NCBI GenBank assembly: GCA_013289765.1
Contig: JABCZI010000005.1
Location: forward strand, 62,001 to 126,000
Length of the DNA stretch: 64,000 bases
Direction: 5' to 3'
Source: Acidobacteriota bacterium
Lineage (GTDB): Bacteria; Acidobacteriota; Terriglobia; Terriglobales; Acidobacteriaceae
In this document: piece after piece, positions 38,735-62,350 of the stretch
Layout: every line of letters begins with the position of its first letter
Numbering within the stretch: the stretch's first letter is position 1
The notes under the pieces: model-generated
Databases searched by the model: none
Told to the model about the DNA's origin: nothing
Seen by the model: only the letters and a program-made list of their open reading frames with translations
Translations under genes and position numbers: made by a program

Positions 38735-40426
38735 ATGGTTCTGAATTCCATAATATCTTCGCAGTCGTCGAGTTCCGGCGTTTTTCCTGCCCTGGTGCTG
38801 GTGCAGGGCAACGAACAGAAAAGCATTGTCCTCAACCGGACGCCTTTCAGTGTGGGCCGCAAAGTCGATAAGGACCTGGTGATCGCGGATCCCCGCGTGT
38901 CGCGCGATCACGCGCTCATTGTGTTGGAAGCGGAAGGTTTTTTTCTGATCGACCAGGGGAGCAAGCATGGAACTTTCGTCAACGGGGAGCGCGTTCAGCG
39001 GCAGCGGTTGGAGCGAAACGACCGTCTGGAATTTGGCGCGCGCGATTCGACGTATGCCATCTTCAATCCGGCGCACGGTAATACTTCGAACACGGCTCGC
39101 GAGTTCCTGAGCCAAATTTCCGGGATTCAGATTTCGCAGGAAGGGACCACGGATCTCGAGAAATTAACTTTGTTTCTGGAAGCAGCGCGTAAGTTGAACA
39201 CGGCCGGCGTGCTCGACGAAATTCTGATGACCATGCTGGAAGTGACGTTGCGGCTTACCCGCGCCGAGAGGGGCTACGTTTTTCTCAAAGATGACGAGGG
39301 CAAGCTTCGACTGGCCGCGGGGCGCAATAGCAAGGGCGAACCTTTACTCGACGATAAGACTATTTCGCATTCGGCGCTGGAAGAATCGTTGCGTTCGAAT
39401 TCAGAATTCCTGCTTACCGATACTGGCAGTTCAATGGACCTGGCAGCGCGGCAAAGCATTGTCGCCTACGACCTGCGTACGGTGATTTGCATCCCTCTTC
39501 GTAAGCGCCATGTGCAGGCTGCGCGCGACCAGCAGACTCCGGCCCCAGGCGCCGCATCTTCGGAAGTGACTGGAGTCCTTTATGTAGATTCGCGCTTTGC
39601 CTCGCGAGAGTTTTCCGGCGTTGGCCACGATATTCTGCGGGCCATTGCGACAGAAGCCGGGTCGCTGATTGAGAATGCGCGGCTGGTCCAGGCTGAGGAA
39701 GAATCGCGGCGCTACCAGCAGGAGTTGACGATTGCCGCAGGCATTCAGCAGCGGCTGATGCAGGTAAAGATTCCAGAAGTGCCGTTTGCCACGCTGCGCG
39801 GGAAGAATTTGTCTTGCAAAGAAATCGGCGGGGACTTCTTCGATGCCGTGATTACTAAAGAAGGTCTTGCCGTGGTCCTGGCGGATGTAAGTGGCAAAGG
39901 TGTTTCAGCGGCGTTGCTCGCTTCCACTTTGCAGGGCATGGTTATATCGCAATTAATTTCGGGCACGCCGTTGCTTGAGGTTGTGTTCGCCGTGAACCGT
40001 TTTTTTACCGAAAAGCTAGTGGGAGAGAAATACGCCACGGTGTTGCTGGCACGTCTTCGCAGTGACGGCGATCTGGAATATGTTAATTGTGGTCACGTGC
40101 AGCCGCTGCTGGTTTGCGGAGGAGAAGTGATCCGTCCGTCGCACGGCAATGTGCCGGTCGGTCTGCTTCCCGACGCGACGTTTGAGAGCGACCATTGCCA
40201 GCTTCATTCCGGTGATCGCTTTATTCTTGTAACGGATGGCGTAACCGAAGCGGAGAATGCCATGGGCGACTTCTTCGAAGATTCCCGGCTCGAAGCGGCG
40301 GCAATTAAGACTCCCACGCTGGAAGGAATTTTTTCGGCAGTCTCGGAGTTTTGTGCTGGAAATCCATTGAACGACGACTGCACGGTCGTGGAACTGGTCT
40401 ATTCGACCACTGGCGCGCAGGCGTAG
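38735..40426 (+). CDS. FHA-GAF-PP2C (SpoIIE-type) phosphatase
   Basis: The 563-residue regulator has three parts. An FHA domain at residues about 20-105 binds phosphothreonine (SVGRKVDKDLVIADPRVSRDH and GSKHGTFVNG). A GAF domain at about 145-315 senses a ligand. A PP2C-like Ser phosphatase domain follows at about 340-555, with metal-binding Asp in CKEIGGDFFDA, LADVSGKGVSAA, LVTDGVTEAEN and NDDCTVVEL. Such proteins control anti-sigma-factor systems or stress signalling. A small anchored protein follows after 35 bases, so the two may be one operon. Confidence 0.92.
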   Translation: MVLNSIISSQSSSSGVFPALVLVQGNEQKSIVLNRTPFSVGRKVDKDLVIADPRVSRDHALIVLEAEGFFLIDQGSKHGTFVNGERVQRQRLERNDRLEFGARDSTYAIFNPAHGNTSNTAREFLSQISGIQISQEGTTDLEKLTLFLEAARKLNTAGVLDEILMTMLEVTLRLTRAERGYVFLKDDEGKLRLAAGRNSKGEPLLDDKTISHSALEESLRSNSEFLLTDTGSSMDLAARQSIVAYDLRTVICIPLRKRHVQAARDQQTPAPGAASSEVTGVLYVDSRFASREFSGVGHDILRAIATEAGSLIENARLVQAEEESRRYQQELTIAAGIQQRLMQVKIPEVPFATLRGKNLSCKEIGGDFFDAVITKEGLAVVLADVSGKGVSAALLASTLQGMVISQLISGTPLLEVVFAVNRFFTEKLVGEKYATVLLARLRSDGDLEYVNCGHVQPLLVCGGEVIRPSHGNVPVGLLPDATFESDHCQLHSGDRFILVTDGVTEAENAMGDFFEDSRLEAAAIKTPTLEGIFSAVSEFCAGNPLNDDCTVVELVYSTTGAQA

Positions 40427-40461: not shown

Positions 40462-41031
40462 ATGGCGAAAATGGCCGGAAAGCGCCTACTGATAGTGATT
40501 CCGGCTTTCACTGCAGTTTTGGTGGTAGCGGGGTGGACTTTCTGCTATCACTCCTTTGAGTTCAAAGGTGGTATAAGCATCCACGATTCCGGATTTTTCT
40601 CTTATCCTCGCTTTCGCGCTGAGTTAGCAAAGGTGCCCTTATGGAAGGATGGAGAATATCGGCTCACCGTGAGCGGCTTACCTTCCGAGTCTTTAGATTT
40701 GGAGTTGCAAGTAGTCGATGCAACCTATGCCGACACAACGGCACTAACTTCATCGTCCGCCTCGGTGGCTATTTCAATAGCTGATACTTCTGGTCATCCG
40801 CTCTGTACAGTGAGCGGCAAGCTATCCGATGCAAGGCTCCGGGGTTTAGAAAGCTGGGTTCTAGAATCGAGCAGCTCGTACGCTGCATTTTGGCATTCCA
40901 GCTGCCAACAGCTGCCCATCAGCCGATTCAGAACCTATGTAGTGAGTGTGACGGTGTCGGGTGCAGACGATCGCGAACCTCACCGCTCGCTTGTGGCTGT
41001 GCTTCGAGGAGGCGGAAACGAGTTGCCTTGA
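40462..41031 (+). CDS. Small anchored periplasmic protein, DSGxFSYPR/GGGNELP family, copy 1
   Basis: No known family is recognised. The 189-residue product has one N-terminal membrane helix (residues about 8-26), then an outside domain. It shares with the product at 60548 the motif DSGFFSYPR, then GEYRLTVSGLPSE, the Cys in HPLCTVSG, a second Cys in WHSSCQQL, and an identical GGGNELP end. The two Cys probably form a disulfide. ATG 40462 follows GGAGAG by 7 bases. It lies 35 bases after the FHA-PP2C gene and stops 20 bases from the convergent glucoamylase. Confidence 0.85.
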   Translation: MAKMAGKRLLIVIPAFTAVLVVAGWTFCYHSFEFKGGISIHDSGFFSYPRFRAELAKVPLWKDGEYRLTVSGLPSESLDLELQVVDATYADTTALTSSSASVAISIADTSGHPLCTVSGKLSDARLRGLESWVLESSSSYAAFWHSSCQQLPISRFRTYVVSVTVSGADDREPHRSLVAVLRGGGNELP

Positions 41032-41051: not shown

Positions 41052-43460
41052 CTATTCCACAACCACGCTGTAGTCCTTACCCTCCCAGCGATTCTCCTGC
41101 GGCCAATAAAACGTGAAAACCACTTTGCTGCCGCCGGGTAACGAGGCGGTTGGCAAGTCGAGCGTGTAGATGCCCAGTCCGGTGTCGCGGGTGTTGGTAT
41201 CATGCGAACTCTTCCAGTCGTCAATGCTCCAGTGAACCAGCGCGGGAGTGAGCAGAACGATGCGGAGTTTCTTGTAGCGCGGCACGGATCGCGTCTTGTT
41301 GTTGAACCTCCAACCAAAGACTTGGCGCGCCGGTTTCTCCACCAGGTATCGCTGCACCGTCTGCGGAGGCTGATCAAAAATCTTGCCGTCGCGCAAAGAG
41401 CGGCGCAGCTTCACATACTCGGAATGCGCCCACACCAGCGGACACGCGGACCCGGTGGGCTTGCCGCGAAATAGTTCGAGCGATGGGATGTCGTCCGCAT
41501 CCCAGACTTGTTCAGGGAGCAAGCGGCTTTGGCCCGTGGTGGAGTTCTCGATCATCGAGAGCAACGCTTCGGCCTCTTTGGGCCGACCGGCGGCAAGCTC
41601 GTAGTGGGCGCGCTCGCCCGCGAGCAGCGGCCACGGACGCCCGATGCCGGTGCCGTCAAAAGGCGATCCGTCCTTGTGCTCGCCGTAACCGTCGCCGTTG
41701 TAGCGATACCAGCAGGGCCCCTGTGGAAGTTGCACGCGGAGCAGCGCGTCGATCACGCGAATCGTGTTCAAGATGCGGGGATCATCTGGCGCCCGCAATC
41801 CGAAGCGCACAAGCGCCAGCGAATCCGGACTCACAATTTGAAAGGCACGTTGCGGATCTTGCCCGGGCGGCCGATTTTTTATGGGAACGAATCCCTGCGT
41901 GGGCGAGGCAGCAGCGTCATCGACGTCGGGCGGGGCGATGCGCACGTAGTAACCTTCCACGCCGATCTGCTGAGCCAGGTCGCCGCCGGTGGCATAGACC
42001 CAGCGCTCGATATTGTCATTCCAGGCATCGGCGGCGTCGCGCAGCGTGGAGCAGACATCGCTGTGTCCGGTGAGTTCTGCAATGTCCGCCGCAGCCAGCA
42101 GCGCGGAGATTTCTGCCGCCAAGGTAAATGGAGAATATCCTCCATCCTCTTCCCAACGGTCCTGTTGTGTGACCGGACCGTTGCGCAGAATGAAACTCGC
42201 GGCGTTGCGCACCATGGGCCACCAGCGCTCCAGTTTGCCCAGGCCTGGTGCCGATTCCCGGCGCAACAGATCCAACAACAAGATGGGGAAGGCGGTTTCG
42301 TCCATCTGGATGCCGCTCCAATAAGGACGGCCGTCCAGCCATAAATTCTGCGCCCAGTTGCCGGCGGCCTCCTGCGTAGCCTCAAGATAGCGAAGGACTC
42401 TCACAGCGTCGGCGGCGGCGCCGGAGGCTAGAAGCGCTCCCGCGGTTTCCACCAAATCGCGCGGCCATACCAGGTGATAGCCGCCGAGATCTTCATCACC
42501 TTTATTGAATCCCCAAGGAATCGAGAGGCTGGCGATAATGCCGCCCAGAAAATCTTTGGACTCGTGCGTGCGCAAGACGCCCATTGACGCGCGGTATAAA
42601 TCATTTTCGCGTCGCGGTTCATCCAGCTTGAGCAAGGTGTCCTGCCAGTTTTTCCAATGCATCACATAATGTTTACGAAGGTCGCTATAGTCTTCGAGCA
42701 AGGTAGATCGCACTTGCTGGCCGGCCTCGGTGCAGATGGAGCCGAAGCCCAAGGCCAGCACGAACTCTCCGTTGCAGGACGCCAGATCGATCTCTCCAGT
42801 GCAAGCGATGTTGCCGTTTTCCGCGCGCTGGTATTCCCACTCCATCTGAAAATGTGCCGAGAGATCCTGCCATCCATCCGAGGTGCCGACGAATCCGACT
42901 GACATCTTTTTCCACGGCGCCGAACAGGCCAGTGCCAGCGCTGTGCCGTCATGCTCGGCGAGAAACATGGATAGGCCTTTGTAATCGCCGACCCATCCCG
43001 TGTTAGCGTTGCCAAAATTGGCCAGGTGCGGCGACAGCAAGGCGTAAAGGCGATAATCGGAAAGCTGACCCTGAAGCGGTTCGAAGCGAATCTTCTGCAG
43101 CACCACGTTCCGATAAGGATCGGTGAAGATTTCCTTGTGAATGCGGTACCGGCCCGAGTTCTCAGTATTGATGAGCTCGAACGCCGGAACGCCGGGCTCG
43201 AAAGGCCGGTTCTCAAACGTGCAATGCCGCTTTTCCTCCGAGAAATAAGAGCGGCCATCGGTGACCATGAAGCCGAGATCGCGAGTGCAGGCCTGGTCAA
43301 CGCGCGGAAAGTAGACTTCATTCAAAATGCCATGACTGATGGTGAACCAGACCTTGCTATGCTGGTTCAATGCTGTGCCCGCACCAGTCTTGGCGCTCGA
43401 AGTCCAGCGAGGTGGAATCCCCGGCCAGCCGGGGGCAAAACGCACGGGAGAATCGCTCAT
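41052..43460 (-). CDS. Glucoamylase-type glycoside hydrolase, GH15
   Basis: The 802-residue enzyme fits GH15 glucan 1,4-alpha-glucosidases with an N-terminal beta-sandwich (about residues 15-270) and an alpha/alpha barrel. Hallmarks are GGYHLVWPRDLVETAG at the barrel start, WEEDGGYSPFTLAAEI, YRYNGDGYGEHKDGSPFDG and the late catalytic region LLPEQVWDADDIP. No signal peptide is visible, so it probably acts on intracellular glucans such as glycogen or trehalose-like compounds. A C-terminal beta domain follows (about residue 690 on). It is convergent with the small anchored gene. Confidence 0.93.
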   Translation of the reverse strand: MSDSPVRFAPGWPGIPPRWTSSAKTGAGTALNQHSKVWFTISHGILNEVYFPRVDQACTRDLGFMVTDGRSYFSEEKRHCTFENRPFEPGVPAFELINTENSGRYRIHKEIFTDPYRNVVLQKIRFEPLQGQLSDYRLYALLSPHLANFGNANTGWVGDYKGLSMFLAEHDGTALALACSAPWKKMSVGFVGTSDGWQDLSAHFQMEWEYQRAENGNIACTGEIDLASCNGEFVLALGFGSICTEAGQQVRSTLLEDYSDLRKHYVMHWKNWQDTLLKLDEPRRENDLYRASMGVLRTHESKDFLGGIIASLSIPWGFNKGDEDLGGYHLVWPRDLVETAGALLASGAAADAVRVLRYLEATQEAAGNWAQNLWLDGRPYWSGIQMDETAFPILLLDLLRRESAPGLGKLERWWPMVRNAASFILRNGPVTQQDRWEEDGGYSPFTLAAEISALLAAADIAELTGHSDVCSTLRDAADAWNDNIERWVYATGGDLAQQIGVEGYYVRIAPPDVDDAAASPTQGFVPIKNRPPGQDPQRAFQIVSPDSLALVRFGLRAPDDPRILNTIRVIDALLRVQLPQGPCWYRYNGDGYGEHKDGSPFDGTGIGRPWPLLAGERAHYELAAGRPKEAEALLSMIENSTTGQSRLLPEQVWDADDIPSLELFRGKPTGSACPLVWAHSEYVKLRRSLRDGKIFDQPPQTVQRYLVEKPARQVFGWRFNNKTRSVPRYKKLRIVLLTPALVHWSIDDWKSSHDTNTRDTGLGIYTLDLPTASLPGGSKVVFTFYWPQENRWEGKDYSVVVE

Positions 43461-59948: not shown

Positions 59949-60551
59949 ATGCCGGAAATCACAAGCAAGGAACCTGGAAACAGGCAGGTCCCGCCGACGC
60001 AGCGACTCGAAACTCCTGATTCAAGCGCAGCGGTGCGCTTGCGTCCGGCGTTAGGAGTCTGGCTGCGCGACCTGATCGTTTCTCTGGCAATCTCGGCGTT
60101 CATCATAGTATTCATCTACCAGCCAGTTAAGGTCGAAGGCACGAGCATGATGCCCTCGCTTGAAGACCAGGAAAGAATTTTCGTAAACAAGTTCGTTTAC
60201 CGCCTGGAGCCGATTTCGCGGGGGGATATTGTGGTGTTCCGGTATCCCCGCGATCCCTCGAAAAGTTACATCAAGCGCGTGATCGGTGCGGCCGGGGATC
60301 GAATCCGTATCGACAGCGGCCAAGTCTATGTGAATAGCGAGGCGATCGAGGAGGATTATGTTCCACCGGTGTACGCCGATGCACGTTCTTATCCGGAGAT
60401 GGTAGTGCCGCCGGAGTGCTACTTCGTTCTTGGAGACCATCGCTCCATGTCGAACGACAGCCGCGACTTCGGACCAGTGAATCAGAGTTATATTTATGGC
60501 AAGGCCGTATTTGGATACTGGCCGATGGATAAGCTGGGCCGGGTAAGGTGA
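59949..60551 (+). CDS. lepB: Signal peptidase I (second copy)
   Basis: This is a 200-residue S26 peptidase with a single membrane helix (residues 40-58), a more standard layout than the copy at 680. The Ser-Lys dyad is Ser66 in EGTSMMPSL and Lys109 in SYIKRVIGAAGD, and VLGDHRSMSNDSRDFG is the conserved late box. The N-terminus has a 38-residue cytoplasmic tail. Its stop overlaps the GTG start of the next gene (GTGA). A 7-bp hairpin at 59891-59916 lies in the divergent control region. Confidence 0.95.
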   Translation: MPEITSKEPGNRQVPPTQRLETPDSSAAVRLRPALGVWLRDLIVSLAISAFIIVFIYQPVKVEGTSMMPSLEDQERIFVNKFVYRLEPISRGDIVVFRYPRDPSKSYIKRVIGAAGDRIRIDSGQVYVNSEAIEEDYVPPVYADARSYPEMVVPPECYFVLGDHRSMSNDSRDFGPVNQSYIYGKAVFGYWPMDKLGRVR

Positions 60552-61114
60552 GCGGCGAAAGCGACCCTCAGAACCAGAGGGCACCCTTTCGCTTCGTATT
60601 CGTTGCGATTGCTCTTGGGCTGATCGCCTGCTGGTACTTATTGTCTTATCATTCGCGAGCATTCCATGAAGCTGGCGCGATTCGGGACTCCGGCGTATTC
60701 AGCTATCCACGCTATCACGTCGAGCTCGACCAAATCCCGTTTTCCGAAGGTGGCGAGCATCGCTTTGCTTTCACGGGCGCTCCGTCTGAGGAGATGTGGC
60801 TGCAATTCGACGTTGTCGGAAAGACCGCCCGGGATGCCCAAATACTTGAACGCCTCACAACTCAGCTCGATGTGTTGTTAAGCGACGATCAAGGAAAAGT
60901 TCTCTGTGCGGCATCCGGTACCCCGGCAACGAGAGCGTGGATTCTGACTTACTCCGCCGACTACGCTGGTTTTTACAGCCTCTCTTGCACAAACCTGCAA
61001 ATAAATAGGCGAAGCTCATATATCCTTAGAGTGGAATTGAAAGATGCAGACGCTCATTCGCCGAATATATTCCTCAGGCCCACGCTTCTCGGCGGTGGCA
61101 ATGAGCTTCCTTGA
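60548..61114 (+). CDS. Small anchored periplasmic protein, DSGxFSYPR/GGGNELP family, copy 2
   Basis: No known family is recognised. The 188-residue product has one helix (residues about 15-33) and an outside domain. It aligns with the product at 40462 across its length: DSGVFSYPRYHVEL, GEHRFAFTGAPSE, KVLCAASG, YSLSCTNLQI and the identical C-terminal GGGNELP. The two Cys are at matching places. The GTG start overlaps the stop of lepB by four bases, so the two are translationally coupled. This suggests a role tied to protein export or envelope proteins, which is inference. Confidence 0.85.
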   Translation: MSGESDPQNQRAPFRFVFVAIALGLIACWYLLSYHSRAFHEAGAIRDSGVFSYPRYHVELDQIPFSEGGEHRFAFTGAPSEEMWLQFDVVGKTARDAQILERLTTQLDVLLSDDQGKVLCAASGTPATRAWILTYSADYAGFYSLSCTNLQINRRSSYILRVELKDADAHSPNIFLRPTLLGGGNELP

Positions 61115-61163
61115 CTCAGTTGACTGCTTCGAAATAAAATTTCGCTGAAGACCAGCTCCGCCC

Positions 61164-61192
61164 TTGGTCCTTGAGCCAATCCCTGATAAAAT
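61164..61192 (+). promoter_or_regulatory. Possible sigma-70 promoter of carA
   Basis: TTGGTC at 61164-61169 and TAAAAT at 61187-61192 are separated by 17 bases. The start of carA is at 61220. The -35 is a 4/6 and the -10 a 5/6 match to the consensus. Confidence 0.4.
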
Positions 61193-61219
61193 TCTTCAAA
61201 TCCACACATTGGAGCGAGA

Positions 61220-62350
61220 ATGCAGGCTATCCTTGCGCTGGAAGACGGGCGAGTCTTCCGAGGCAAAGGCTACGGCGCCAAAGGCGAGTGCTACGGCGAA
61301 GTCGTTTTTAATACTTCCATTACTGGCTACCAGGAAATCTTCACCGATCCTTCTTATTCAGGGCAGATCGTTGTCCTGACCAATCCTCAGATCGGCAACT
61401 ACGGAACCAATCAGGAAGACAACGAAGCCACGCGTCCGTGGATCGAAGGCCTCATCGTGCGCGAGTTTTCGAAAGTGAGTTCGAATTGGCGCTCGCAGCA
61501 GGTGACGGATGAATACCTGGAACAGTTCAAGGTGCCGGTGCTTTCGGATATCGACACGCGGGCGCTGGTGCGGCATCTGCGCGACCACGGCGTGATGCGG
61601 GGAGTGGTCTCAACCATCGAGAACGATGTTGAGAAGTTGGTGGCTAAAGCCAACTCGATTCCTAAGATGGACGGCACGGACTTGGCGAAGGTGGTTAGCA
61701 CCAAAGGCCCCTATGTGTGGGAAGTAGGCGAGCGGTCGCATGAACCTGTCGCGATGGTTGGAGTGAAGGACGAGCCCGCTCGCTTTCATGTAGTGGCTTA
61801 TGACTTCGGTATTAAGCAAAACATTCTACGTAAGTTACGCGGAGAGGGATGCCGGGTGACCGTAGTGCCTGCGCAGACCACTTCCGAAGATGTTCTCGCT
61901 TTGAAGCCCGATGGAGTATTCCTATCGAACGGCCCCGGCGATCCCGAGCCGTGTACGTACGCAGTGGATTCGATTCGACGTCTCATGGGCCGGCAGCCGA
62001 TTTTTGGAATTTGTTTGGGGCATCAGCTAACTGGGATTGCGCTCGGCGGGAAGACTTTCAAGTTGAAGTTTGGACATCACGGCGGGAATCATCCCGTGAA
62101 GCAGTTGAAGACGGGGAAGATCGAGATCACGGCGCACAACCATAACTTCGCCGTCGATCCTGATTCGCTGCCGCAGAGCGAAGTGGAGTTTACGCACATC
62201 GATTTGAACGACTCCACTTTGGAAGGCCTGAGGCACCGCAATCTGCCGCTGTTCAGCGTGCAGTATCACCCGGAAGCTGCGCCGGGGCCGCATGATTCGC
62301 ATTATCTGTTCAAGGATTTCGTGAAGATGATGGAGGAGTGGAAAGGGTGA
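61220..62350 (+). CDS. carA: Carbamoyl-phosphate synthase small subunit
   Basis: CarA is the glutaminase subunit that supplies ammonia to CarB for carbamoyl phosphate (arginine and pyrimidine synthesis). The 376-residue protein has the N-terminal domain (ALEDGRVFRGKGYGAKGE, VFNTSITGYQEI) and the class I amidotransferase domain with the catalytic Cys265 in FGICLGHQLTGIALGG and His/Glu in VQYHPEAAPGPHD. GGAG lies 5 bases before ATG. carB is not next to it; a methyltransferase gene overlaps its stop (GTGA). Confidence 0.96.
   Translation: MQAILALEDGRVFRGKGYGAKGECYGEVVFNTSITGYQEIFTDPSYSGQIVVLTNPQIGNYGTNQEDNEATRPWIEGLIVREFSKVSSNWRSQQVTDEYLEQFKVPVLSDIDTRALVRHLRDHGVMRGVVSTIENDVEKLVAKANSIPKMDGTDLAKVVSTKGPYVWEVGERSHEPVAMVGVKDEPARFHVVAYDFGIKQNILRKLRGEGCRVTVVPAQTTSEDVLALKPDGVFLSNGPGDPEPCTYAVDSIRRLMGRQPIFGICLGHQLTGIALGGKTFKLKFGHHGGNHPVKQLKTGKIEITAHNHNFAVDPDSLPQSEVEFTHIDLNDSTLEGLRHRNLPLFSVQYHPEAAPGPHDSHYLFKDFVKMMEEWKG

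Follow-up and report, generated by a model that had tools for sequence, protein, structure and literature searches.

The immunity gene of an Rhs toxin is located immediately downstream of the toxin, according to a study that covers Serratia RhsI1 (PMC10539506). Immunity genes can also occur as orphans, and work on Vibrio T6SS arrays (PMC5361080) and on Bacteroidales rAID arrays (PMC12247911) indicates that such genes can protect. A 2012 survey of polymorphic toxins describes many immunity families and includes Acidobacteria among the hosts (PMC3482391). Here we describe a family of small anchored proteins encoded twice in the window, by which we mean the whole 64,000-nucleotide stretch of Acidobacteriota DNA that was analysed. 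Like Rhs immunity proteins, two relatives of the window proteins are encoded by small same-strand genes, one behind an Rhs-core frame (genome G360) and one in an Rhs-core array (genome G1014), but the family has no significant match in Pfam or NCBIfam, is predicted to be exported, and in the window has no adjoining toxin. The window copies share with orphan immunity genes that they are stand-alone, patchy and divergent from the toxin-side copies. Whereas the Vibrio and Bacteroidales genes form arrays, the window copies are single genes in separate intergenic slots, and protection by them is a proposal.

Copy 1 is encoded on the forward strand at 40462..41031 (ATG start, 189 amino acids) and its paralogue, copy 2, on the same strand at 60548..61114 (GTG start, 188 amino acids); these are the only two family copies in the 4.8-Mb window genome (G000). 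The program-listed open frame at the place of copy 1 is longer, starting from a TTG at 40351 and encoding 226 amino acids, and a Shine-Dalgarno-like stretch, GGAGAGAAG, lies ahead of the ATG at 40462. The two proteins share 63 of 179 aligned residues (35%) with a BLASTP E value of 9e-37, which excludes a chance likeness. Both carry the motif DSG[FV]FSYPR (in copy 1 as DSGFFSYPR, residues 42–50, 40585..40611; in copy 2 as DSGVFSYPR, 60686..60712), the segments GE[YH]R and G[LA]PSE, a matching pair of cysteines (C115/C148 in copy 1, C120/C147 in copy 2) and an identical GGGNELP C-terminus (41008..41028 and 61091..61111). Kyte–Doolittle profiles place a single hydrophobic helix at each N-terminus, the best 19-residue means being 2.31 for copy 1 and 2.20 for copy 2, against 0.83 and 0.72 for the best segments further downstream. 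The helix spans residues 8–27 of copy 1 (40483..40542; a low-confidence helix in the structure model, with the hydrophobicity peak at residues 9–27) and residues 14–37 of copy 2 in its AlphaFold model (60587..60658). The first-pass annotation had reported the lengths, the single N-terminal helix, the named motifs, the matching cysteines and the common end, and the open frames, hydrophobicity profiles and translations agree with it on all of these; its description of a two-member family proved too narrow, as eight further loci occur in other genomes.

The same annotation had recognised no described family, and this held in each library searched. Pfam returned no family for either window protein up to an E value of 10, and a table without a cut-off for 10 members gave four families, each for one member, the best at E 0.012 (V-set). 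Searches of NCBIfam and PHROG with three members returned one chance-level row each (E 0.13 and 0.36), PADLOC returned no match for 10 members, and a profile search of PDB sequences gave chance-level rows only, none better than E 0.14. A literature search for GGGNELP, DSGFFSYPR or FSYPRY found one walnut paper, unrelated judging by its title, and we found no account of the family in the literature searched.

The eight further loci lie in genomes G024, G687, G635, G592, G187, G126, G360 and G1014; beyond these, G1040 yields a weak match and G024 also retains a remnant of the C-terminal part. Homologs outside close strains thus exist, but they are rare and scattered. Within the genus, members occur in 2 of 45 genomes, namely the window genome and G024. 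The phylum sample yielded 3 of 396 genomes with a three-row profile and 4 of 396 with a nine-row profile, the latter after the rejection of one of five matches. The class of the window genome yielded 4 of 399, and one family within it 3 of 89, the same three genomes. Among 193 genomes of the class to which G126 belongs, G126 itself was the one match, and in the class that includes G360, three of 148 genomes matched at E ≤ 0.01 (G360, G1014 and the weak G1040). These samples overlap, and the genus, phylum and class samples of G000 include the window genome; the phylum and class searches scored the first eight candidates per genome, so that their counts are lower bounds. Genome contigs beyond the phylum were scanned by narrow patterns only. 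Plasmids gave no match with four different members as queries. The match rejected from the nine-row phylum search, in G357, is a frame that crosses the open frame of another gene, presumably DUF2071-like. A match in a phage record (H1), obtained with copy 2 as the sole query, had an E value of 2 and was not accepted, and three matches in viral contigs were rejected, two of the three having been inspected and found to be a chance frame of 60 residues.

The weak match in G1040 (L127:2426-3559, G1040:C90; E 4.7e-6) belongs to a frame of 377 residues that has one hydrophobic stretch at its start and another in its middle. It lies near genes that we take to be CPBP-protease-like and may represent the domain in another architecture. 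Being too weak and differently built, it was kept out of the alignment and tree, as was the G024 remnant.

The members in G360 and G1014 lie among Rhs genes. The G360 member is a lipoprotein-like protein of 204 amino acids whose gene (L092:271-885, reverse strand) starts 12 nt after the stop codon of an open frame on the same strand, and that frame carries an Rhs core (TIGR03696, E 9.2e-22) followed by a C-terminal region of its own. The gene is therefore immediately downstream of a putative Rhs C-terminal toxin region, the location of a cognate immunity gene; further upstream, oriented likewise, is another module with an Rhs core. Membership of this protein in the family is indicated by an E value of 1.8e-4 in a profile search of one genome and by a score of 24.7 bits against profile A3, where 2000 shuffled copies reached at most 3.5. 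The putative toxin region has no Pfam domain beyond a weak Rhs repeat, and in tblastn only its tail matches elsewhere; neither the window nor the remaining neighbourhoods supplied to that search contain a match. The G1014 member, also lipoprotein-like (E 1.3e-8 with profile A5), is on a 4127-base contig where small genes lie between two fragments of Rhs core, one scoring above the TIGR03696 cut-off (E 2.4e-11) and the other below it (1.6e-5). Its ATG overlaps, as ATGA, the stop codon of an upstream frame of 138 residues, measured stop to stop, that has no Rhs core. Near its end this frame reads GPVPGWGDPIQI, where the putative toxin region of G360 reads GWVPGWNDPVKL; the two agree at 12 of 30 residues with 29.6 bits, a score reached by none of 1000 shuffles (best 24.6). 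In tblastn over 18 sources the G360 tail matched G1014 with 27.7 bits (E 0.038) and the other G360 Rhs module with 28.5 bits (E 0.024), and we count the G1014 match as weak because of this E value and the equal match inside the other module.

In a tree of ten members, a branch with support 97/97 separates G360 and G1014 from the other eight (midpoint root; the G1014 branch is long). The G126 protein entered the tree by its N-terminal piece alone, and the deeper order is partly open. The G1014 member is 21% identical to copy 2 over 201 residues, and the two Rhs-linked proteins end in GGGFKI or AGGKRI, not GGGNELP. The cysteine pair is kept throughout the clade of eight, on two separate pieces in G126, and is absent from the alignment rows of G360 and G1014. 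No Rhs gene or other recognised delivered toxin adjoins any of the eight loci of this clade, the window's included (read by eye, with 19 genes scanned against Pfam; the G187 gene is at a contig end), and a single G360 query gave no Rhs match in 4 of 8 member genomes. The window copies are not downstream of a toxin gene, and the one Rhs match of their genome is elsewhere, with two DUF2019 genes rather than a family member behind it.

The membrane anchor varies among the members, being a hydrophobic helix in six and a lipobox-like end, judged by eye, in four (LSGC in G187, LTSC in G635, ALSC in G360 and FSAC in G1014). That the type of membrane anchor has been exchanged between members suggests that the domain acts outside the cytoplasm. 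AlphaFold models of the window proteins, built with three aligned sequences only, show one helix followed by about eleven strands, with mean pLDDT 76.5 and pTM 0.70 for copy 1 and 78.6 and 0.69 for copy 2. In copy 1 the ten-residue blocks across residues 51–180 score 82–91, apart from one at 70, and in both models the tail ends in three or four residues that score below 50. Read together with the fold matches, the strands predict a beta-sandwich, with fair confidence in the fold, over residues 39–183 of copy 1 (40576..41010) and 43–182 of copy 2 (60674..61093). The first-pass annotation had argued for a real conserved function outside the membrane; the export-type anchors and the predicted extracytoplasmic domain favour the location, but "conserved" is weakened, the family being rare and patchy and some copies looking broken. 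Unless these are assembly errors, the G126 gene is frameshifted, the G592 gene has an altered end, and G024 holds the remnant mentioned above.

The top fold match of both models is 3nkg_A, an uncharacterised protein of Sulfurospirillum deleyianum (Z 9.1, rmsd 3.0 and 121 aligned residues for one model; Z 8.6, rmsd 3.1 and 120 for the other), with Foldseek TM-scores of 0.45 and 0.49 for copy 2. It is the closest solved structure to both models, yet the identity is 12% and its title states no function; a literature search found no paper that names 3nkg. Further down come p24 GOLD domains (Z 7.7), subtilase C-terminal domains (7.4–7.5), which we take to be PPC-type, collagen-binding domains (7.0–7.4) and carbohydrate-binding modules (6.0–7.1). 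The GOLD, subtilase and carbohydrate-binding sandwiches have the same general arrangement, but at Z of about 6–7.7 they are tied with many unrelated rows, and the family has no significant Pfam match. Together with the row for the lysozyme inhibitor PliG, considered below, these tied matches say only that the predicted sandwich is a common one.

A toxin that acts in the periplasm calls for an immunity protein that is exported. Given this need and the Rhs-immunity position, the G360 member is most simply read as a cognate immunity lipoprotein, as probably is the G1014 member; the members of the other clade would then be orphans. From homology, predicted fold, anchors, patchiness, congener slots free of the family and the Rhs location of two distant members we infer, with a probability of about 0.4, that the family consists of exported immunity proteins and that the window copies are orphan members. 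The window copies are homologous to the G360 and G1014 members, a separate clade with a putative immunity role, and that role would extend across the branch to them. Mechanistically, the compact beta-sandwich would attach to toxin domains that arrive in the periplasm and block them, being tethered either through a single helix to the inner membrane's outer face or through a lipid anchor to a membrane. Foremost among the candidate toxins are the C-terminal domains of Rhs polymorphic toxins, and the G360 member, perhaps also that of G1014, would neutralise the module that directly precedes it. The window copies may be orphan immunity genes that were acquired singly, inserted behind the PP2C gene and lepB, transcribed with them and kept for protection against the toxins of competitors. 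Several observations count against immunity: the toxin-free surroundings of the larger clade, the DUF2019 genes behind the window genome's own Rhs gene, the four member genomes in which the single Rhs query had no match, the divergence of the Rhs-linked proteins, the weak tail match of G1014 and the broken-looking copies. More tentatively, we propose that an antidote family arose beside Rhs toxins and has since spread over the Acidobacteriota as solitary genes behind house-keeping genes, at least once together with conjugation genes, giving one-gene protection against periplasm-acting toxins.

The two window slots bear on how the copies arrived. A spacer of 35 bases separates copy 1 from the preceding gene, which the first-pass annotation had named as a PP2C-type regulator (38735..40426, forward strand); the right border of this slot is a presumably glucoamylase-like gene on the reverse strand (41052..43460). 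The GTG of copy 2 overlaps the stop codon of a gene (59949..60551, forward strand) that, following the earlier name, we take to be signal-peptidase-I-like (lepB), and a gene that we take to be carA-like follows on the forward strand (61220..62350). Each copy is so close behind its upstream neighbour that it could share that gene's transcript. The earlier annotation had proposed a check of how often family members adjoin lepB or PP2C genes, and this adjacency did not extend to relatives. The PP2C gene occurs in 40 of 45 genus genomes, the window genome included (E ≤ 1e-100). A lepB match was present in 44 genomes and a PP2C match in 40, and from each set 30 loci were taken, counting the window's own; the 58 congener loci (29 per slot, some cut by contig ends) hold no member. 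In a profile search, none of the 21 congener lepB–carA gaps and none of the 26 PP2C–glucoamylase gaps contained a member. Twelve of the lepB–carA gaps, at 103–224 bases, could not accommodate a member, and the other nine measure 540–1409; for PP2C–glucoamylase, 22 measure 26–254 bases and four 401–830. A conserved partnership with signal peptidase or the PP2C regulator, to which the position in the window genome would speak, is made highly improbable by these gaps and by the other genes that members adjoin elsewhere. Both copies were accordingly either added in the window lineage or lost in all the relatives examined. Across the genus the lepB–carA gap (60552–61219 in the window) varies, being short or holding another gene, in some of the longer congener gaps presumably an isoprenylcysteine-methyltransferase-like or serine-hydrolase-like one.

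Judging from sequence features, the window copies were probably acquired horizontally. Their third-position GC (0.521 for copy 1, 0.561 for copy 2) is the lowest among 11 window genes, the others ranging from 0.595 to 0.705. The proteins of G000 and G024, from the same genus, are 30–36% identical, while in the tree the G024 protein pairs with that of G687 from another family (support 100/99, 67% identity) and the G592 protein with that of G126 from another class (90/92, 54% over 136 residues). The G024–G687 pairing taken alone could equally reflect vertical descent. The frameshifted G126 gene is on a 15.6-kb contig (L083, G126:C112:1-15645) with conjugation-type genes (a TraG/TraD C-terminal domain, a T2SSE ATPase and a topoisomerase), AbiEi/AbiEii genes lie about 2.4 kb from the G592 member, and an IS200-like transposase gene is in the neighbourhood of the G635 member.

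The main rival to immunity holds that the family is a general ligand-binding beta-sandwich of the envelope, for carbohydrate or protein, carried as accessory cargo, with the Rhs neighbourhoods a coincidence or a side branch of changed role. We regard this as a serious possibility, if one that falls short of even odds: many kinds of binding domain appear among the fold matches at tied scores, and a toxin neighbour was seen at none of the loci read in the larger clade. It sits less well with the Rhs arrays around both members of the other clade, one directly behind an Rhs-core frame and one overlapping the frame before it, and all ten aligned members lack a fused enzyme or other module. A narrower version of binding, a periplasmic inhibitor that blocks peptidoglycan hydrolases of predators, phages or hosts in the manner of PliG, would overlap with immunity if the toxin were a wall hydrolase. 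Its predicted location and size fit, and PliG (4dzg), like the predicted copy 1 a small periplasmic protein, appears in the fold list for copy 1 (Z 6.9, rmsd 4.0, 108 aligned residues); at 6% identity and rank 22, tied with unrelated domains, and with PliG not among the 50 fold matches listed for copy 2, we consider an inhibitor of this kind unlikely. Quite unlikely, too, is an envelope protein that acts against phages, by superinfection exclusion or otherwise, and is borne on mobile elements. Patchy single genes, one of them on the conjugation-type contig, and export-type anchors would suit such a protein, but PADLOC recognised none of the 10 members, and neither the phage records, queried with copy 2 alone, nor the viral contigs gave an accepted relative.

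As exported immunity proteins, the family would probably belong to the known toxin–immunity conflicts rather than to a new kind of system. To our knowledge, interbacterial warfare in Acidobacteriota has been little studied at the bench. If the immunity reading is right, the family adds a new antidote fold for Rhs toxins, G360 offers a directly testable toxin–antidote pair, and orphan immunity would be spreading gene by gene and not as arrays. Should it be wrong, what remains is an exported family that none of the libraries searched describes, its fold predicted with fair confidence, and neither lepB nor PP2C is its partner in the genus.

Two Rhs loci deserve mention in their own right. The 2.7-Mb Acidobacteriota genome G360 has 17 Rhs-core matches, and in the four contigs read (C8, C11, C24 and C43) many form tandem core/tip modules with a different small gene behind each. 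The window genome's own Rhs gene (G000:C6:73494-79855) encodes 1843 amino acids with an Rhs core (E 1.1e-15) and is followed by two tandem DUF2019 paralogues, likely a toxin with duplicated immunity genes.
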